The notes under the pieces were generated by a model. It searched no databases. It saw only the letters and a list, made by a program, of their open reading frames with translations, and was not told the DNA's origin. A stretch of DNA of 64,000 bases, from assembly GCA_021162935.1 (NCBI GenBank), contig JAGGXR010000152.1, positions 1-64,000 on the forward strand, written 5' to 3'. Position numbers and translations under genes: made by a program. The DNA is from Deltaproteobacteria bacterium (GTDB lineage: Bacteria > Myxococcota_A > Polyangia > HGW-17 > SLPX01). Shown piece after piece: positions 1,748 through 36,261 of the stretch (the first letter of the stretch is position 1; every line of letters begins with the position of its first letter).

Positions 1748-2314
1748 ATGGCAGACGACGTAGAAGCCCTCGTGCAAAACCTTGAAAAACAAATCGACGC
1801 GCTTAAGGAGCGGGTCGAAGAAATCGGGGAGGCAGCCCCCGACGATTCCCTGGCGATTGGGGTCATCAGTGGATCCTTGGACCGGATCATCGCCACCTTC
1901 ATCGTAGCCCTGGGAGCTGCGGCCTACGACATGGATGTGCATCTCTTCTTCACCTTCTGGTCTATCGCGGCCCTCCGGGATCCGAAGAAAACGGCCAAGA
2001 AGAGCTTCCTCGGCAAGATGTTCGGATGGATGCTGCCCAGGGGCAGCAAAAAGCTTCCCCTGTCGTCCATGAACATGGGCGGTATGGGCCCCAAAATGAT
2101 CCGAGGACTCATGAAGAAAAACGGTGTGGCATCTCTGGAGGAGATGATCCAACAAGCGGGCGAATTCGGTGTCAAAATCTACATTTGCGAGATGTCCATG
2201 GACCTGATGGGGTTCAAGCGGGAAGAAATGATCGACTATCCCGGCCTCGAATACGTGGGGGTCGGGACCTTCCTGGGCCTTGCCCAATCCGCCAAGCAAA
2301 CCTTCTTCCTCTAG
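1748..2314 (+). CDS. DsrE/DsrF-family sulfur-relay-like protein
   Basis: A 188-residue protein starting at ATG 1748 behind TTTGGAGGCAGGC. It begins with an acidic coiled coil (roughly residues 1-32). A DsrE-like alpha/beta fold follows: an early G-A-A-A-Y-D-M-D segment with V-H-L-F-F-T-F-W, a basic linker, then V-K-I-Y-I-C-E-M-S-M near the C terminus. That last strand carries the Cys that in DsrE/TusD-like proteins accepts sulfur. The layout matches the DsrE/DsrF/DrsH-like peroxiredoxin-related proteins often found beside sulfur-carrier or rhodanese genes, but no such partner is adjacent here. The substrate is unknown. The gene is probably monocistronic, with a weak terminator just after it. 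Confidence 0.7.
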   Translation: MADDVEALVQNLEKQIDALKERVEEIGEAAPDDSLAIGVISGSLDRIIATFIVALGAAAYDMDVHLFFTFWSIAALRDPKKTAKKSFLGKMFGWMLPRGSKKLPLSSMNMGGMGPKMIRGLMKKNGVASLEEMIQQAGEFGVKIYICEMSMDLMGFKREEMIDYPGLEYVGVGTFLGLAQSAKQTFFL

Positions 2315-2335
2315 GATCTTTAGGACCTTTTTCAG
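2313..2335 (+). terminator. Weak candidate terminator after the DsrE-like gene
   Basis: An imperfect AGGATC-TTTA-GGACCT stem starts in the stop codon and runs into five T. The stem has mismatches, so the assignment is tentative. Confidence 0.3.
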
Positions 2336-2638
2336 AATATGCCACAATGCAGGCTCTGGCCGGGCTCAGCCGCAGCACCCCCCGATGGAAAGGTCCGGCT
2401 GCCCGTATCTCCAATTCTATTACCCCCACTTCGTGCTGCTTTCGCTATGGCGCTCAAAATTTGTCCGTCGATGCAGTCATCTCCAACCCATCCAGTCAAT
2501 GTCTGTGGTGAGGGCGAAGACTTTCTCCTTGAAGATAGAAAAGATTTCTACTATCGTATGTTCGTTCGCACATATTGGGGTTTCGTTTTGGGCCAGCTCG
2601 CAAAACGTAGCTGTTCGAGCATCGATTGGAGGCACGAA
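2315..2638 (+). other. 324-bp intergenic region
   Basis: It holds no supported gene. The open frame that runs through it is only the in-frame upstream extension of the lipoprotein starting at 2639. The one visible signal is a candidate sigma-70-type promoter at 2529-2557. Confidence 0.5.
2529..2557 (+). promoter_or_regulatory. Candidate promoter for the lipoprotein at 2639
   Basis: TTGAAG (2529-2534) and TATCGT (2552-2557) are separated by 17 bp. The leader to the ATG would be about 75 nt. Each hexamer matches consensus at four of six bases. Confidence 0.4.
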
Positions 2639-3691
2639 ATGGCGAAAAAGTTATTGTGGGTGGCTCTTCTGGCCGGAGTGATGGCGGGTTGTGCTGCGCA
2701 GCCGGCCCCGGACAATACGAACAGTGCCCAGAGCGCAGACCAGGCGTTCGACAACCTCCATAACGGGTTCAACGACGGCCAGTTCGGCAAGGATTCGAAA
2801 CAAGACGGATTCTGGGATCGACTGGATGTCTGTAAGGTCCTGGGCGACGTGTTCAGCACCGGCGACCAAGTCGTGCGGCTCGGATTCTTCTACGGAGTCG
2901 AAGGCGAAGGCGTCCTGGGCGCCACTTATGGAATGGCCGGCTATGACGTCGTCTTCGACCTGTATCACCGCCAGATGTCCGTCTCGAAGTACTTTGGAGG
3001 CGGCATGGGCATGCCTGGACTAGGCGTGTCGGCCAGCGTCTATGCCGGCATCGCCGAAGGCTTTCAGCATGGCGTCGGCGACTGGGATGGATACTTCGTC
3101 AACGCCGAGTTCGACGTGGGCCTCCCCTTCCTGAAAGACTACTTTTCCGTGACCCCGGTCTTTTTCGTGAGCGGCGTGGATCAAAATGACGACAACATCA
3201 TTTCGCCGTCCGAAATCCTGACGCCGCCCAACGGCGTCTACGGATTTTCGGTGGGCCTCAGCGTAGGCGTGGACGCCCTGCCCGACGTGCTGCCCGTCTC
3301 TGGCGCCATCACCGAAGGCTTGTGGATGCCCCACAAAAGCGCCATTCGTCACTTCTATGACTTCCTCGACGACACGAACATCCTTGGGTATCAACTGGAC
3401 GTGGAACTCGTGGATCACGAAACAGGGGAACTCTGCCCAAGCGATTGGCCGGACGTGGATTCAGAACGAGAGTGTATCGTGGAATTCGGCAACAACCAAT
3501 CCTCGAACACCAAGGCAGCCCTCCACATGGCATGGGGCATCTGCGAGCTGAACGGCGGATGTCTGTTCCCGCTGGCCGGGTCCGCTGCCCTGTCCGCCGT
3601 GGCCATCGGCGCCTTCCAGGACGCGGGAAATTCCCTTGGCGACATCTGTCCCGACCTGGCAGCCTCCCTCGGCGAACCATCCGGGGAGTAA
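2639..3691 (+). CDS. Lipoprotein of unknown function
   Basis: A 350-residue protein. ATG 2639 is chosen because TTGGAGGCACGAA precedes it and because the next residues form a lipoprotein signal, MAKKLLWVALLAGVMAGCAA (lipobox AGC). After an acidic, Asn-rich linker the mature protein alternates hydrophobic and glycine-rich stretches (GFFYGVEGEGVLGATYGMAGYDVVF; SVGLSVGVD), giving a beta-rich impression. Cys appears in SDWPDVDSERECIVEFG and MAWGICELNGGCLF. No known family is recognised. The start context closely resembles that of the preceding DsrE-like gene. Confidence 0.75.
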   Translation: MAKKLLWVALLAGVMAGCAAQPAPDNTNSAQSADQAFDNLHNGFNDGQFGKDSKQDGFWDRLDVCKVLGDVFSTGDQVVRLGFFYGVEGEGVLGATYGMAGYDVVFDLYHRQMSVSKYFGGGMGMPGLGVSASVYAGIAEGFQHGVGDWDGYFVNAEFDVGLPFLKDYFSVTPVFFVSGVDQNDDNIISPSEILTPPNGVYGFSVGLSVGVDALPDVLPVSGAITEGLWMPHKSAIRHFYDFLDDTNILGYQLDVELVDHETGELCPSDWPDVDSERECIVEFGNNQSSNTKAALHMAWGICELNGGCLFPLAGSAALSAVAIGAFQDAGNSLGDICPDLAASLGEPSGE

Positions 3692-3925
3692 GTCACCGGG
3701 TCACAATGTTGTTCGTCGGTCCGGCGCCTTGCTTTATGACACCCTCTTCATGACCGCCGATCGTCGCTGTCTCGGGAATCATCTCGCAGCCCGATGATCC
3801 AGGCTACCGGCTGCTCCTGGTTGGTCCCGAGCAGCCTCGCCGCCCACAGACGCGCTATCGCCTGTTCATGCGAGTCAGCCATCTGCTCCTCGAAGGAAAG
3901 CGCTGGTCCTCCTCAGGACAACGAG

Positions 3926-3956
3926 TAAAAAAAGAACCGGCGTCGAGCGTCCCGCC
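3926..3956 (-). terminator. Candidate terminator after the Cys-rich/RCC1 gene
   Basis: On the minus strand GGCG (complement of 3953-3956) pairs with CGCC (3939-3942), and the transcript then runs into a tract of seven T (3927-3933). It lies directly behind the stop codon at 3957-3959. The stem is short. Confidence 0.45.
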
Positions 3957-5795
3957 TCAGGGCAAGGTCACTCTCGTGGCAAAAGACCGATCGGCCGTGG
4001 ACTCATCACCAAGCTGCCCCTTGTCGTTGGCCCCCCAGCAATAGGCCTGATGGTTCACGCCTACCGCGCAGCTATGCTTGTCTCCAGCCGACACCTCCAG
4101 GGCGCTCAGACTCGACGTGGTGGTCTTGACCCCAACCGCCGTATTGTGATCGTTTGTGGACCCGTCGCCGAGTTGTCCGCGGTCGTTCTTGCCCCAGCAC
4201 CAAACGAATGCGTCCGGTTGGCTCGCATCCAATCCACAACTGTGGTGTCCACCCGCCGCAACGGCCACTCCACCAGTCATGTTCGTGTTCGTGACCGCCG
4301 TCGGAATCGCCATCTGGTCTGGTCCAGTGACCATGCCAAGCTGACCATCGACGTTTTCGCCCCAGCAATACAAGGCATTACTCGCATCCACGGCGCAGGT
4401 GTGTTTCTCTCCCGCAGAAATGGTGACGAAAGTGTGGCCGCCGGCCACGGAAACAGGCACAACCTCGTCACCATTTGCGCCCTTGCCGAGCTGGCCCTTG
4501 TCGTTTTGTCCCCAGCACACGGTGCTCCCACTGGACCGCACGGCACAGGCGTGCTTGTTGCCCGCATCGAGCGCCGTGGCATCGTCCGACGAAAGCGAGA
4601 CCTGCACCGGCCCAGCCCCGATGGTTCCATTGCCATTGCCGAGCTGCCCATGATCGTCATTGCCCCAGCACCAAACCTCGCCATTGTCGCGCAGGGCGCA
4701 GGCGAAGTCACCGCCCGCCGTCACCGAGGCAACGTTGGTCCATCCTCCCAAAACCGCGATCGGCGTGGAACGGTCCGTGATGGAGCCGTCGCCGAGCTGT
4801 CCATGATCGTCGTGGCCCCAACACCACACGGTGCCATTGTCGCGCACCGCACAGGTGAACGAATGTCCGGCCGAGATGCCCACCACATTTGTCCAATCCC
4901 GAACCTGGACTGGAGTCGGGCTGTCATTCGTAGTGCCATCGCCGAGCTGCCCCTTGTCGTTTGCGCCCCAGCACCATGCCGTGCCATTGCCCATGACGCC
5001 ACAGGTGTGATCGAATCCCGCCGAGACGGTCACCCATCCGCAATCCTCTGGGCAAACATCGATGGTCTCACCCTTGTCCTTGTCACAAACCCCGTCGTCG
5101 CAATCGAAGCATCCGGATTCGTCGAAGGTGCACGAATTCGTGCAGCCCATCTCCCCGCCCGCGTGGTTGCGGTCCGTACACTTGACCCCCGCCAGGGCCA
5201 GTCCGTCACATTCCTCCATGGGGCCTTCGACCGTCCCGTCGCCACAGGTGTGGCAGGTCCCCTTCAACAGCGCCTTGCAGTCGTCACTGCATGACAGGCT
5301 TCCTTCGGTCCCTTTGCCCTCCGACGAACAGGTGGCGCCGCCGAAATCACTGCCGTCACAGGTCTCTCCCGCTTCCTTGATACCATTGCCGCAGCCGTAG
5401 CACTGAGACGTATCAAAGACACAAGTCGCCGTGCAGGACAAAGTGCCACCTGTCATACCCAGACTCTGACAGGTGGCCCCCCCAAGGTTGCCCCCATCGC
5501 ACTCCTCGTTGTTGTCGATCTGCCCGTTGCCGCAATCCAATGGAATACATTGCGTCTCATCATAGGTACAGGACGCCGTGCAGCCCAACACCCCACCACT
5601 GTACCCAAAATCCAGGCAGGTCTTCTGACCGAGATCCTGACCATCACAGAGTTCGCCGTTGTCGATCTGTCCATTGCCACAACCAGTGACCACATCAGGC
5701 CTTGCGTCTGCAGCAACGACTGCATCCGGGTCGAAACGACACCCATTCCCCACGAGAACCATACCGGCCAAGACCGGCCACATCCACCGCTTCAT
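3957..5795 (-). CDS. Secreted lipoprotein: Cys-rich repeats plus seven-bladed RCC1 propeller
   Basis: A 612-residue protein. ATG 5795 follows GAGGAGGACTCGA, and the signal MKRWMWPVLAGMVLVGNGC ends in a lipobox, so lipid-anchored export is likely. Residues about 40-230 hold four disulfide repeats of the form CGNGQID-x(2)-E-x-CDG-x(n)-G-C-T-x-SC-x-D-x(3)-C (DUF4215/Myxococcus Cys-rich type). Residues about 235-612 hold seven RCC1 repeats marked by W-C-W-G-x(2)-D-x-GQLG, with an extra Cys before each W-G that suggests inter-blade disulfides. Seven repeats complete one RCC1 propeller. Bacterial RCC1 proteins are generally of unknown function; a binding or adhesive role is inferred from export and architecture. 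Confidence 0.85.
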   Translation of the reverse strand: MKRWMWPVLAGMVLVGNGCRFDPDAVVAADARPDVVTGCGNGQIDNGELCDGQDLGQKTCLDFGYSGGVLGCTASCTYDETQCIPLDCGNGQIDNNEECDGGNLGGATCQSLGMTGGTLSCTATCVFDTSQCYGCGNGIKEAGETCDGSDFGGATCSSEGKGTEGSLSCSDDCKALLKGTCHTCGDGTVEGPMEECDGLALAGVKCTDRNHAGGEMGCTNSCTFDESGCFDCDDGVCDKDKGETIDVCPEDCGWVTVSAGFDHTCGVMGNGTAWCWGANDKGQLGDGTTNDSPTPVQVRDWTNVVGISAGHSFTCAVRDNGTVWCWGHDDHGQLGDGSITDRSTPIAVLGGWTNVASVTAGGDFACALRDNGEVWCWGNDDHGQLGNGNGTIGAGPVQVSLSSDDATALDAGNKHACAVRSSGSTVCWGQNDKGQLGKGANGDEVVPVSVAGGHTFVTISAGEKHTCAVDASNALYCWGENVDGQLGMVTGPDQMAIPTAVTNTNMTGGVAVAAGGHHSCGLDASQPDAFVWCWGKNDRGQLGDGSTNDHNTAVGVKTTTSSLSALEVSAGDKHSCAVGVNHQAYCWGANDKGQLGDESTADRSFATRVTLP

Positions 5796-9441: not shown

Positions 9442-9501
9442 TGGCGGGCAAGGCACGCTAACAGCGCGATCACAAAACGACAGACCGTGCGTTTCGGTCT
9501 C

Positions 9502-9659
9502 AGTCGGCTGTTCAAAATAAGGTTGCCAATTTGGCTCGCCGAGGCGCCTGTCTGGCACGAAGCGACGAGGTTGCGTACTGGTCGTACGCGACCGAGGAAC
9601 GACAAAGCCACACGGGATGGATGGCAGTTCCAAATGGCAGATTTATTCTGATCAGCCGA
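9502..9659 (+). mobile_element. MITE-like 158-bp repeat, copy A
   Basis: It has the same length as copy B (11413-11570) and aligns without gaps, with 126 of 158 positions identical by hand count. The ends are imperfect inverted repeats: TCGGCTGTTCAAAATAA at the left against TCGGCTGATCAGAATAA from the right, continuing as TTGCCAATTTGG against TGCCATTTGG. It encodes no transposase and no plausible protein. The right end touches the ribosome site of gctA. No target-site duplication is evident. Confidence 0.75.
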
Positions 9660-9673
9660 AAAGGAGGTACCAA

Positions 9674-10648
9674 ATGAGTAATCTCGCCTCGGGAAGAGGG
9701 GCGCTCTTCCAGAAGGAAAAGGTGGATGACCTGCGCCATTGGGTTCGAGAAAACAAGCCCAAGGGACTCATGTCCAAAGTGATGTCCGAGCAGGAAGCCA
9801 TCGCTAAGTTCATGACCGAAGGTTGCTACCTCGGGGTGGAACTGTATGGGTCGGTGCGCTGCCCCATGTCGCTCGTGCGCGAAGTGGTCCGACAGGGAAT
9901 CGGCAACCTGCGTCTCGCCGGCCAGGGCGTGCTCGAAAACGACCTACTCATCGCGGCGGGGCTCGTCAAAAAACTGGATATCACCTACCACGGATACGAA
10001 GTTTTCGGCATCTCACCCGTGCTGCGTCGGGCCTGCGAGTCGGGTGAGGTGGAGACGGTCGAATGGTCCAACGCGGCGCTGGCCTGGCGGTTCAAGGCAG
10101 CGGCCATGGGGCTGCCCTTCCTTCCCGTGCGCTCCATGCTGGGAACGGACACGTTCACGTACAGCGCGGCAAAGGAAATCGAATGTCCCTTCACCGGGCA
10201 GAAGCTTGTCGCCCTGCCCGCTCTGACCCTCGACGTGGGGCTCATCCACGTCCACCGATGCGACGAATACGGAAATGCGCAGATCGACGGGATCTCCGGA
10301 TTTGCATCGGAGATGGCGCGGGCCTCGAAGCGACTCATCATTTCGACTGAGGAGATCGTACCTCACGAAGAAATCCAGAAATATCCGGAACGAACCATCA
10401 TTCCGTACTATATCGTGGACGCGGTGGTCCACGCTCCGGGCGGCGCCCTTCCAGGCGAAATGCCCTACGTGTACTGGCGCGACGAAAAACATATGAACCT
10501 CTACTTCGAGCAGGCCAAGAATGCGGAAGGCGTGGAACAGTACGTGGAAAAATGGGTCCGAGGCACGAAAGACCACGAGGACTTCATGAAAAAGCTGGGC
10601 GGCGCGGAACGGTTCGAGCAGCTCAAGGCGCAGGCGACTCGGAGGTGA
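9674..10648 (+). CDS. gctA: Family I CoA-transferase, subunit A (glutaconate CoA-transferase GctA-like)
   Basis: A 324-residue protein starting at ATG 9674 behind AAGGAGGTACCAA. It matches the alpha subunit of glutaconate/3-oxoacid-type CoA-transferases: an N-terminal MSEQEAIAKFM, then G-V-E-L-Y-G-S-V-R-C-P-M-S-L-V-R-E-V, GQGVLENDLLIAAGLVKK, LPVRSMLGTDTF, and the LIHVHRCDEYGNAQIDG segment. With GctB it would exchange CoA between an acyl-CoA and a dicarboxylic or related acid; the acid substrate cannot be read from sequence. The start of gctB is 4 bp beyond the stop, so the two are translationally linked. The pair is bracketed by two MITE-like repeats. Confidence 0.85.
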   Translation: MSNLASGRGALFQKEKVDDLRHWVRENKPKGLMSKVMSEQEAIAKFMTEGCYLGVELYGSVRCPMSLVREVVRQGIGNLRLAGQGVLENDLLIAAGLVKKLDITYHGYEVFGISPVLRRACESGEVETVEWSNAALAWRFKAAAMGLPFLPVRSMLGTDTFTYSAAKEIECPFTGQKLVALPALTLDVGLIHVHRCDEYGNAQIDGISGFASEMARASKRLIISTEEIVPHEEIQKYPERTIIPYYIVDAVVHAPGGALPGEMPYVYWRDEKHMNLYFEQAKNAEGVEQYVEKWVRGTKDHEDFMKKLGGAERFEQLKAQATRR

Positions 10649-10651
10649 GCC

Positions 10652-11413
10652 ATGACTGAGTACAACAAAAGTGAACTGCTCATCTGCACGGCGGCGCGCC
10701 AGATGGCGGACAACACAATCTGCTTCATCGGAACCGGTATCCCCATGCTCGCCGCCGCCCTGGCCAAGCGAACGCACGCTCCCAATCTGGTGGCGGCCTT
10801 CGAATTCGGCGGGGTAGGACCGGACCTGGAGAAATTACCCCTTGCGGTTGGAGGTTCGAGAACCTTCCATCGGGCGGAAATCGCTTCATCCATCTGCGAT
10901 CTCATGGAGGCGGCAGCCAGAGGCTACGTGGAGTACGGATTCCTGGGCGGCGCACAGATCGACCCGTACGGAAACCTGAACGCCACAGTCATCGGCGATC
11001 ACGATCGGCCCAAAGTGCGATTTCCGGGCAGTGGCGGAGCCAATGACATTGGATCGCTGTGCTGGAAGACCATCGCCATCATGCGACACGGAAAGAAACG
11101 CTTCGTTCCCAAAGTCGGCTTCTTGACCACGGCAGGGTACCTGGATGGACCGGGAGCCAGAGAACAGGCTGGCCTGCCTTCCGGTAGCGGCCCCTATCGT
11201 GTGGTGACGGATCTGGCACTGATGGGCTACGACGATGAAACGAAACGCATGAAACTGCTCGCGCTCCAGCCGGGCGTTACGGCTGAACAGGTGCAGGCGG
11301 AAACAGGGTTCGAGTTGATGATTCCAGACGACGTTGCGGTCAACGATGAACCCACCGATGAAGAACTCCGGCTCCTGCGCGAAGAGATCGATCCAGACCA
11401 CCTTTACACGTAA
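10652..11413 (+). CDS. gctB: Family I CoA-transferase, subunit B (glutaconate CoA-transferase GctB-like)
   Basis: A 253-residue protein. It carries the beta-subunit features of family I CoA-transferases: FIGTGIPMLAAALAK near the N terminus, AAFEFGGVGP with Glu51 at the position expected for the glutamate that forms the gamma-glutamyl-CoA intermediate, then EYGFLGGAQIDPYGNLN and PGSGGANDIGS. It pairs with GctA directly upstream (TGA-GCC-ATG spacing) with SD-like AGGTGAGCC. Family knowledge makes a heterotetramer or octamer likely. The stop codon TAA marks the left boundary of MITE-like copy B. Confidence 0.86.
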   Translation: MTEYNKSELLICTAARQMADNTICFIGTGIPMLAAALAKRTHAPNLVAAFEFGGVGPDLEKLPLAVGGSRTFHRAEIASSICDLMEAAARGYVEYGFLGGAQIDPYGNLNATVIGDHDRPKVRFPGSGGANDIGSLCWKTIAIMRHGKKRFVPKVGFLTTAGYLDGPGAREQAGLPSGSGPYRVVTDLALMGYDDETKRMKLLALQPGVTAEQVQAETGFELMIPDDVAVNDEPTDEELRLLREEIDPDHLYT

Positions 11414-11570
11414 GTCGGCTGTTCAAATTGAGATTGCCAATTTGGGGCGCCGAGGCACCCGTCTGGCACGAAACGCCGAGGGCGCGTCCTGGTAGCATGC
11501 AGGCCAGCAGAGACAAAGCCAGGCGCGATGGCTCGCGGTTCCAGATGGCAAATCTATGCTGATCAGCCGA
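11413..11570 (+). mobile_element. MITE-like 158-bp repeat, copy B
   Basis: Its outer base is the last base of the gctB stop codon, followed by GTCGGCTGTTCAAATTGA; it ends in GCTGATCAGCCGA. The left arm TCGGCTGTTCAAATTGAGAT and the complement of the right arm, TCGGCTGATCAGCATAGAT, form an inverted repeat. About 80% identity to copy A, in the same orientation, with gctAB exactly between the two. Confidence 0.75.
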
Positions 11571-11912
11571 CGAAGATAAGCGGATTCTGTCTTCTTCAGC
11601 TCGAACAGTCCAACCCAATGGGCCCCATGCCCACGCGGCCATCTATCATTCCAAGAGGCATGCTGCGCTGAAATCCATAGGCTTGCCTACTTCCAAATGT
11701 GGTTTTGATCCTTTTCAATGGAACTCAGTTCGATTATTGTACCCAAGAAGATAGGAAGGTCCCAAGTACCTGCACGGTCCAGACATCACCGGTACCACTA
11801 TCGGTGATGCAGCGCACAGGGATCCCCGGCGGTCAAACAAACCACGGTCCTCTGTCACGGACCCGCCATCCACAATGGATGCGCAGATGGCCATTTCGTT
11901 GCGAGGAAGACG
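11414..11912 (+). other. 499-bp intergenic region after gctB
   Basis: The first third is MITE-like copy B. From 11571 to 11912 nothing beyond scattered short frames is visible; the ribosome site GAGGAAG just before 11913 belongs to the next gene. Confidence 0.55.
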
Positions 11913-13196
11913 ATGATTCGACAAAAAAACGTACGTTATCTGTGGTTCTTGACTGTTTGCTCCGCTGCAGTGGTTGGTTGCGCCGCGGGAGGCTACACGC
12001 CGGCTCACGAAACGAGTTGCAATGATGGAGTGGACAACGATGGCGACCATTTCACCGATTGCGCGGACTCGGACTGCAGAGGCTTTGCTGGCTGCAGCAA
12101 CATGCAGCCAGAAACGGTCTGCAACGACGGCAACGACAACGACGGCGACGGATTGATCGACTGCCTCGATCCGGACTGCACAGGCAGCGCCGCCTGCCTG
12201 ACCACCGAGATCTGCAACAACGGAATCGACGACGATGACAATGGCGCGATCGACTGCACCGATCCGAAATGCAACAACTCCCCATACTGTGCCGGCCACG
12301 AGAACTGCACGAACGGGCTCGACGACGACAATGACGGACAAACCGACTGTGCGGACTCGGACTGCTCGAGCGCACCCTCGTGCCAAGCAAATCACGAAAT
12401 ATGTAACAATGGAATCGACGACGACGGCGACAACTTTGTCGATTGCGACGATGCCGATTGCTTTTCGGACCCGGCTTGCGCCCCCACACAAGAAATATGC
12501 AACAACGGAATCGACGATGACAACGATGGAGCCACCGACTGCAACGATCCCGACTGCGTGACCTCTCAGTACTGCAAAGAAATATGCAACAACGGAATCG
12601 ACGACGACAGCGACGGTCACACCGACTGTGCGGACTCGGACTGCGCGTCGGACTCGGCCTGCAACACGCAAGGCCTGTCTTGCATGGCGATCAACAACTG
12701 CTACGGCTGCTGTGCCAGCGGGGACAACTCCTGCTACGATGCCTGCGACAGCGCGGGATCGCCCACTGGGTCGAATGAGATGACCGCGTATCTGTCCTGC
12801 GCGCAGACCAACTGTTCGACTGAATGCCAGACGAGCCAGGATGCCTGTTCTCAATGTACTGGGCAATACTGCCAATCCCAGGCGGATGCCTGCGACTGGG
12901 ACCCCAGCGGGACGCAGGGCTGCAACGCACTCAACACCTGCCTTGGAACCTGCCCAGCCATGGCCGCACAAGGCAGCGGCAGCAGTTCGACCTGCCCCTC
13001 TGATTCTGGGCTCACATGCATCGACAACTGCTTCTACCACTCCTCATCCCAAGCCGTGAGCCTGCTCTTCGCCGTGCTCGACTGCCTGGACCAGAACTGT
13101 CAAACCGAGTGCTACGGAACCGGCAGCCAAACGGACTGTCAAAACTGCCAAAGCGCCTACTGCTCGAACGAAGCCTCGGCCTGCGACAATAACTAA
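11913..13196 (+). CDS. MopE-type Cys/Asp-rich repeat lipoprotein
   Basis: A 427-residue protein with a signal ending in VVGCAAGG (lipobox). Residues about 35-260 hold seven tandem repeats of the form E[13 protein letters not shown](2)-D-C-x-D-x-D-C (putative metal-binding motif of MopE and myxobacterial proteins), rich in the Asp pattern of calcium sites. Residues about 260-427 form a different Cys-rich domain: a CYGCC segment, then two copies of a helical pattern with paired Cys ([12 protein letters not shown] / [13 protein letters not shown], each followed by CxxCxxxYC). Export, disulfides and calcium binding are inferred; the ligand is unknown. It is convergent with the thiolase gene, whose stop is 25 bp away. 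Confidence 0.8.
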
Positions 13197-36124: not shown

Positions 36125-36261
36125 GATGGACACCGCGGGCTCGACTTAAGAATCTGGTCAGAAATCTGCTCTTTTGAACAGCCTCCTTATCATCGCCCAG
36201 CCACCTGCTGATCGATGATTGCTCGCGATCCCTGTCGAACATTTTTTTCGGAACTGCACAG

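Follow-up and report, generated by a model that had tools for sequence, protein, structure and literature searches.

A dispersed inverted-repeat element with a conserved core, probably of MITE type, flanks the gctAB operon in a Myxococcota_A genome

In bacterial MITEs it is normally the ends that define the element, and the internal sequence is free to vary. Among other small mobile repeats, bcr1 has a known RNA structure. Rickettsia palindromic elements (RPE), which measure ~150 bp, can be inserted in frame within protein genes. Correia/NEMIS, RUP, and ERIC/RU-1 elements are ~100 to 200 bp long and non-coding, with terminal inverted repeats and target duplication; they occur in tens of copies, mostly intergenic, and their transcripts would fold into long stem-loops (PMC2229807, PMC10969869). 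bcr1, from the Bacillus cereus group, is a small dispersed mobile element of high copy number (PMC6542083), and predicted short RNA elements of Geobacter metallireducens are present in 24 copies with a central palindrome, GRCGTAGCGCTGCTACGCC (PMC2700814). Here we describe an element that resembles these families in many of the features just listed, two copies of which flank the gctAB operon. At a probability of roughly 0.8, we conclude that the 158-bp units at this locus are copies of a dispersed, non-coding, MITE-type inverted-repeat element of ~160 bp that is mobilised in trans, and that they represent two separate insertions.

A repeat search of the window (the whole stretch of 64 kb that was analysed) recovered a direct, gap-free pair of copies, 158 nt each and 80% identical, at 9502-9659 and 11413-11570, in agreement with the first-pass annotation of this DNA. 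The full extents of the two copies (Table 1) were set by the edge positions of other family members. As that annotation had also stated, copy A ends at the gctA ribosome site and copy B begins in the gctB stop codon: the ribosome site (AAAGGAGG) lies directly 3' of copy A, whose right edge has decayed into it, with the start codon at 9674, and the gctB stop TAA at 11411-11413 is the left edge of copy B. Over residues 2-251 of its 253, GctB aligned with chain B of the glutaconate CoA-transferase structure 1poi, indicating that the protein is full length. The ends of both copies form imperfect inverted repeats (AGTCGGCTGTTCAAA / TCTGATCAGCCGA); these had initially been put at ~30 bp, and while the inverted ends themselves held up, we measured them at ~20 bp. 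A putative lipoprotein with repeated calcium-binding type units is encoded at 11913-13196 of the window.

Table 1. Features of the element copies and the gctAB operon in the window
Feature	Position	Strand	Remarks
Element copy A	9500..9663	+	Edge to edge, including 3-bp edge slots TCA and AAG
Copy A, left terminal inverted repeat	9502..9521	+	AGTCGGCTGTTCAAAATAAG, a variant of family end AGGAGGCTGTTCAAAATA
Copy A, conserved structured core	9533..9628	+	Model R1, 82.5 bits
Copy A, right terminal inverted repeat	9642..9661	+	
gctA, CoA-transferase subunit A	9674..10648	+	Outside element
gctB, glutaconate CoA-transferase-like subunit B	10652..11413	+	Full length; stop is copy B edge
Element copy B	11411..11574	+	Left slot TAA is gctB stop codon; right slot GAA
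Copy B, left terminal inverted repeat	11413..11432	+	
Copy B, conserved structured core	11444..11539	+	Model R1, 55.3 bits
Copy B, right terminal inverted repeat	11553..11572	+	
Third trace, 44-bp end-to-end remnant	36146..36189	-	Both terminal repeats, no core

Copy A returned 42 matches by BLAST in the source genome (G000; 5.13 Mb, 168 contigs), nearly all with E <= 1e-17, far more than chance would give; we count these as at least 42, made up of ~35 full-length copies plus fragments. The whole-genome search with the 158-bp unit supported the earlier suggestion of a small non-autonomous inverted-repeat element with many dispersed copies, and added target-type flanks to it. When aligned, the copies shared common exact edges with the consensus TNA-GGAGGCTGTTCAAAATAGGG...TTATTCTGACCAGCCTCC-TNA, and terminal inverted repeats of ~20 bp (AGGAGGCTGTTCAAAATA) were found in nearly all full copies of this non-coding element of ~160 bp. 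The end motif TNAGGAGGCTGNTCA, searched as 13 fixed letters with at most one mismatch, occurred at 96 sites in the source genome, compared to 4 for the reversed control; these 96 include fragments, half elements, and end-to-end remnants of 30-50 bp. The element therefore has the attributes of a MITE, being short, non-coding, bounded by terminal inverted repeats, and dispersed in many copies, with moderate support for target-site duplication. Individual loci held further variants. Remnants of 30-50 bp like that at 36146-36189 of the window were also seen at L046, L049, L051, L056, and L065, and half elements (L042-L045 and L108) break at the hairpin apex, at nearly the same base at several unrelated sites. 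A copy in L057, around 2027 on the minus strand, carries a tandem array of a ~20-bp unit (CATCTGGAACGCCGATCCATC) in its right arm, and the L077 copy bears two terminal repeat types, AGGAGCCGCGGCG on the left and CGGCCGGGCGCCT on the right, and is likely a recombinant.

We examined the edges of the copies for signs of target duplication. TNA was present at both edges in 21 of the 35 full-length copies in the source genome, and its middle base agreed in 12 of those 21, compared to 7 expected; the TAA/TTA combination that base pairing would give was never seen. Only around one in three of these 35 copies had the same triplet at both edges. Relatives showed matching edges of TAA/TAA, TCA/TCA, and TTA/TTA, and four genomes (G109, G113, G060, and G225) had CTAG edges. 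Together, these edges fit a duplicated target of 3 or 4 bp, with support that is moderate rather than overwhelming. A genuine empty site was not encountered. Six full-length genes in the source genome end exactly at an element edge, encoding a histidine kinase, alanine racemase, SecF, a DUF444 protein, a Na/Ca exchanger, and GctB; the same exact match was observed in other genomes for genes encoding DnaK, NamZ, PhoU, an aminotransferase, and a histidine kinase. Eight edges in the source genome are stop codons, relative to 4.8 expected from TNA sites in short gaps (P about 0.01), and given this modest excess, strong targeting of stop codons was rejected. One copy (L012:2462-2626) lies in frame within a gene for an SBP_bac_5 solute-binding protein (open reading frame 2038-4017, minus strand), to which it adds ~55 residues and no stop, the net insertion length being a multiple of three.

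We propose that a transposase acting in trans, presumably a target-duplicating (DDE-type) enzyme, moves the element, and that insertion at TNA (or CTAG in some relatives) would duplicate those bases, as the matching edges suggest. Under this model, copy B would have inserted in the gctB stop codon, the duplicated TAA restoring the stop, and copy A would have inserted separately, upstream of gctA. Both hairpins would then be transcribed with the operon, where they may affect mRNA processing or stability. The first-pass annotation had proposed looking for an autonomous transposase with matching ends, and none was found in G000, G028, or G029, all incomplete multi-contig assemblies, with family searches that covered PF01609, PF13586, and PF01797; a partner may also have been lost. 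Unpaired ends in G000 and G028 proved to be fragments or to derive from internal deletions, no transposase beside them shares the element ends, and in G028 and G029 the end sequences belong only to elements, their fragments, and deletion derivatives. The DDE genes of the source genome were rejected as partners, since the inverted repeats around them do not match the element ends. TNA or CTAG targets, which are typical of the IS5-family groups ISL2, IS1031, and IS5, agree with that family in both length and sequence. A DDE_Tnp_1-type (PF01609) transposase was not detected in G028 or G029, genomes with fresh copies, and PF13586 had no match in G000.

Beyond the source genome, 26 of the 289 genomes in the class contained a right-core pattern. 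With a covariance model built from the core, matches were obtained in 65 of 282 Myxococcota genomes, many of them with multiple copies and most outside the class of the window. The core stems and ladder have a mean pairwise identity of 0.78-0.89 and the apex 0.61, compared to 0.41-0.49 for the terminal and sub-terminal repeats. Within each of three genomes (G029, G145, and G038), similar cores are enclosed by terminal repeats of different sequence, each set forming an almost perfect inverted repeat. The core is thus conserved while the terminal repeats vary between and within genomes, yet still pair. In G028, at least nine near-identical copies with equal core score occupy different sites, a sign of recent movement; internal-deletion derivatives keeping both ends (L153 and L154) lie beside many near-identical full copies in this genome. 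Rfam yielded no match for the window stretch at E values up to 1, and none for the elements of seven other loci. Plasmid and phage collections gave no convincing match to the element, and viral contigs gave none with one element pattern; five viral-contig matches from a looser pattern were discarded because their fold is unlike the element and they fail the core model. In open-access papers, we found no description of the family.

The whole element folds as one end-to-end rod, and the strand shown was more stable than its opposite in 25 of 25 cases. RNAalifold applied to 40 copies gave 31 pairs, and compensatory double changes occur in 25 of these. In a set of 25 diverse copies drawn from about a dozen genomes, 90.9% of cells are paired and double compensatory changes were observed in 42 of 58 pairs. 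The covariation score was 0.472, relative to 0.167 in shuffles (0 of 500 reach it) and at most 0.10 in slid controls. The slid comparison is biased towards the structure, which comes from this very alignment, and sequence kinship weakens the shuffle control; given the size of the gap, both are poor explanations of the covariation. On one strand of the 25 copies, G-U pairs outnumbered A-C mismatches about three to one (107 versus 33), and a second copy set gave 136 versus 34. Because G-U so far exceeds A-C on that strand, a single-stranded form of it (RNA or ssDNA) appears to be under selection. The two sides beside the apex read CGACGAGG and CCGAGGAG, and between them Watson-Crick pairs could alternate with tandem G.A steps in a continuous stack; the single pair between these putative steps changes from C-G to G-C in 8 of the 25 sequences.

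Two readings would tie the copies to gctAB itself. The first-pass annotation had likened the arrangement to a composite cassette in which both copies act together and gctAB is carried as cargo. Direct-oriented copies 1.9 kb apart do flank the operon exactly, and gctB homologues are patchy (5 of 20 genomes in the relatives search, the source genome counted). However, over the whole element copy A shares 79% identity with copy B but 85% with copies elsewhere, and because A is nearer to those than to B, the two look like separate insertions. No duplication around the whole gctAB unit was seen, other close pairs of copies occur in the source genome (C157 and C34), with ~0.7 pairs closer than 2 kb expected by chance for 42 copies in 5.1 Mb, and gctAB homologues in G003, G016, and G019, together with the source genome's own paralogue, carry no element copy. 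(A weak match 5' of the gctA homologue in G017 was dismissed, as it appears to lie in coding sequence.) We therefore regard a cassette as extremely unlikely. Scarcely credible is the other suggestion made there, that the copies are leader and trailer RNA elements specific to this operon, for which one may cite the strong, conserved hairpin and the position of the copies at both operon ends. Rather than a lone pair that always accompanies gctAB, we found at least 40 further matches beside unrelated genes as well as the homologues without a copy named above, and the copies at gene ends in the source genome are about equally sense and antisense to the preceding gene. The dispersed copies and the unaccompanied homologues refute the suggestion as one of an operon-specific feature; what survives of it is a conserved structured nucleic acid, supported by the strong covariation.

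The folded strand bears on two broader alternatives. Its G-U preference suits folded ssDNA as well as RNA, as would be expected of REP/BIME-like palindromes that a Y1 (RAYT) transposase disseminates by way of single-stranded DNA, and Y1_Tnp genes are indeed present in some element-bearing genomes. Nevertheless, the matching edge triplets imply a target duplication, which Y1 enzymes are not known to make; Y1_Tnp had no match in G028, G029, G038, or G149, all with many copies; and the units measure ~160 bp, with no tagged REP unit of 20-40 bp. Spread by this route is very unlikely. The element could instead be a host-beneficial structured RNA, acting at the 3' or 5' end of mRNA, that is spread by transposases but retained because its function as RNA is selected for. 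Consistent with this, the core is conserved phylum-wide while the ends turn over, the helices covary down to the C-G to G-C swap (17:8) between the putative tandem G.A steps, and stop-codon positions are common. That said, copies at gene ends in the source genome have no orientation bias, no shared gene context was seen, and the stop-codon excess is the modest one given above, so that we consider a host RNA unlikely.

Within the MITE-type reading that we prefer, the pairing conserved deep inside the element, which a plain MITE would not need, points to selection acting on a single strand in folded form. We tentatively raise the possibility that the persisting unit is a conserved, strand-specific folded core of mobile hairpins, probably RNA with a tandem G.A ladder, whose terminal repeats are repeatedly swapped or evolve anew with compensating changes, allowing different enzymes (of TNA or CTAG type) to move it; the core itself would then serve mobility or the host. 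Were the core a functional RNA or ssDNA structure, the family would be a large, unnamed one (65 of the 282 genomes sampled) that annotation has missed, and, being located at gene ends, could act on the 3' ends of mRNA.

Set against the described families, the element departs from Correia/NEMIS, RUP, and ERIC/RU-1 in having no Rfam match or identified partner IS, a GC-rich core conserved across the phylum, ends that change between and within genomes, and edges of TNA or CTAG instead of TA. bcr1 is confined to one species group and has a TTTAT target motif, whereas the element here spans many families with changing ends. Although the SBP_bac_5 copy recalls the RPE, it is the only clear example within a gene in the set of 35 full-length copies, and no shared peptide was seen. 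The G. metallireducens elements are likewise dispersed and intergenic with a GC-rich central palindrome, and the apex of a copy in G385, GGCGTAGCGCCGCTACGTC, is similar (PMC2700814); we offer this relation as a lead only, and an approximate query for a Geobacter-like repeat had no match in plasmids. The family offers a direct test of how non-autonomous elements switch transposase. Compared to bacterial MITEs in general, it reverses the usual logic, with an inside conserved across much of Myxococcota and ends that vary yet pair.
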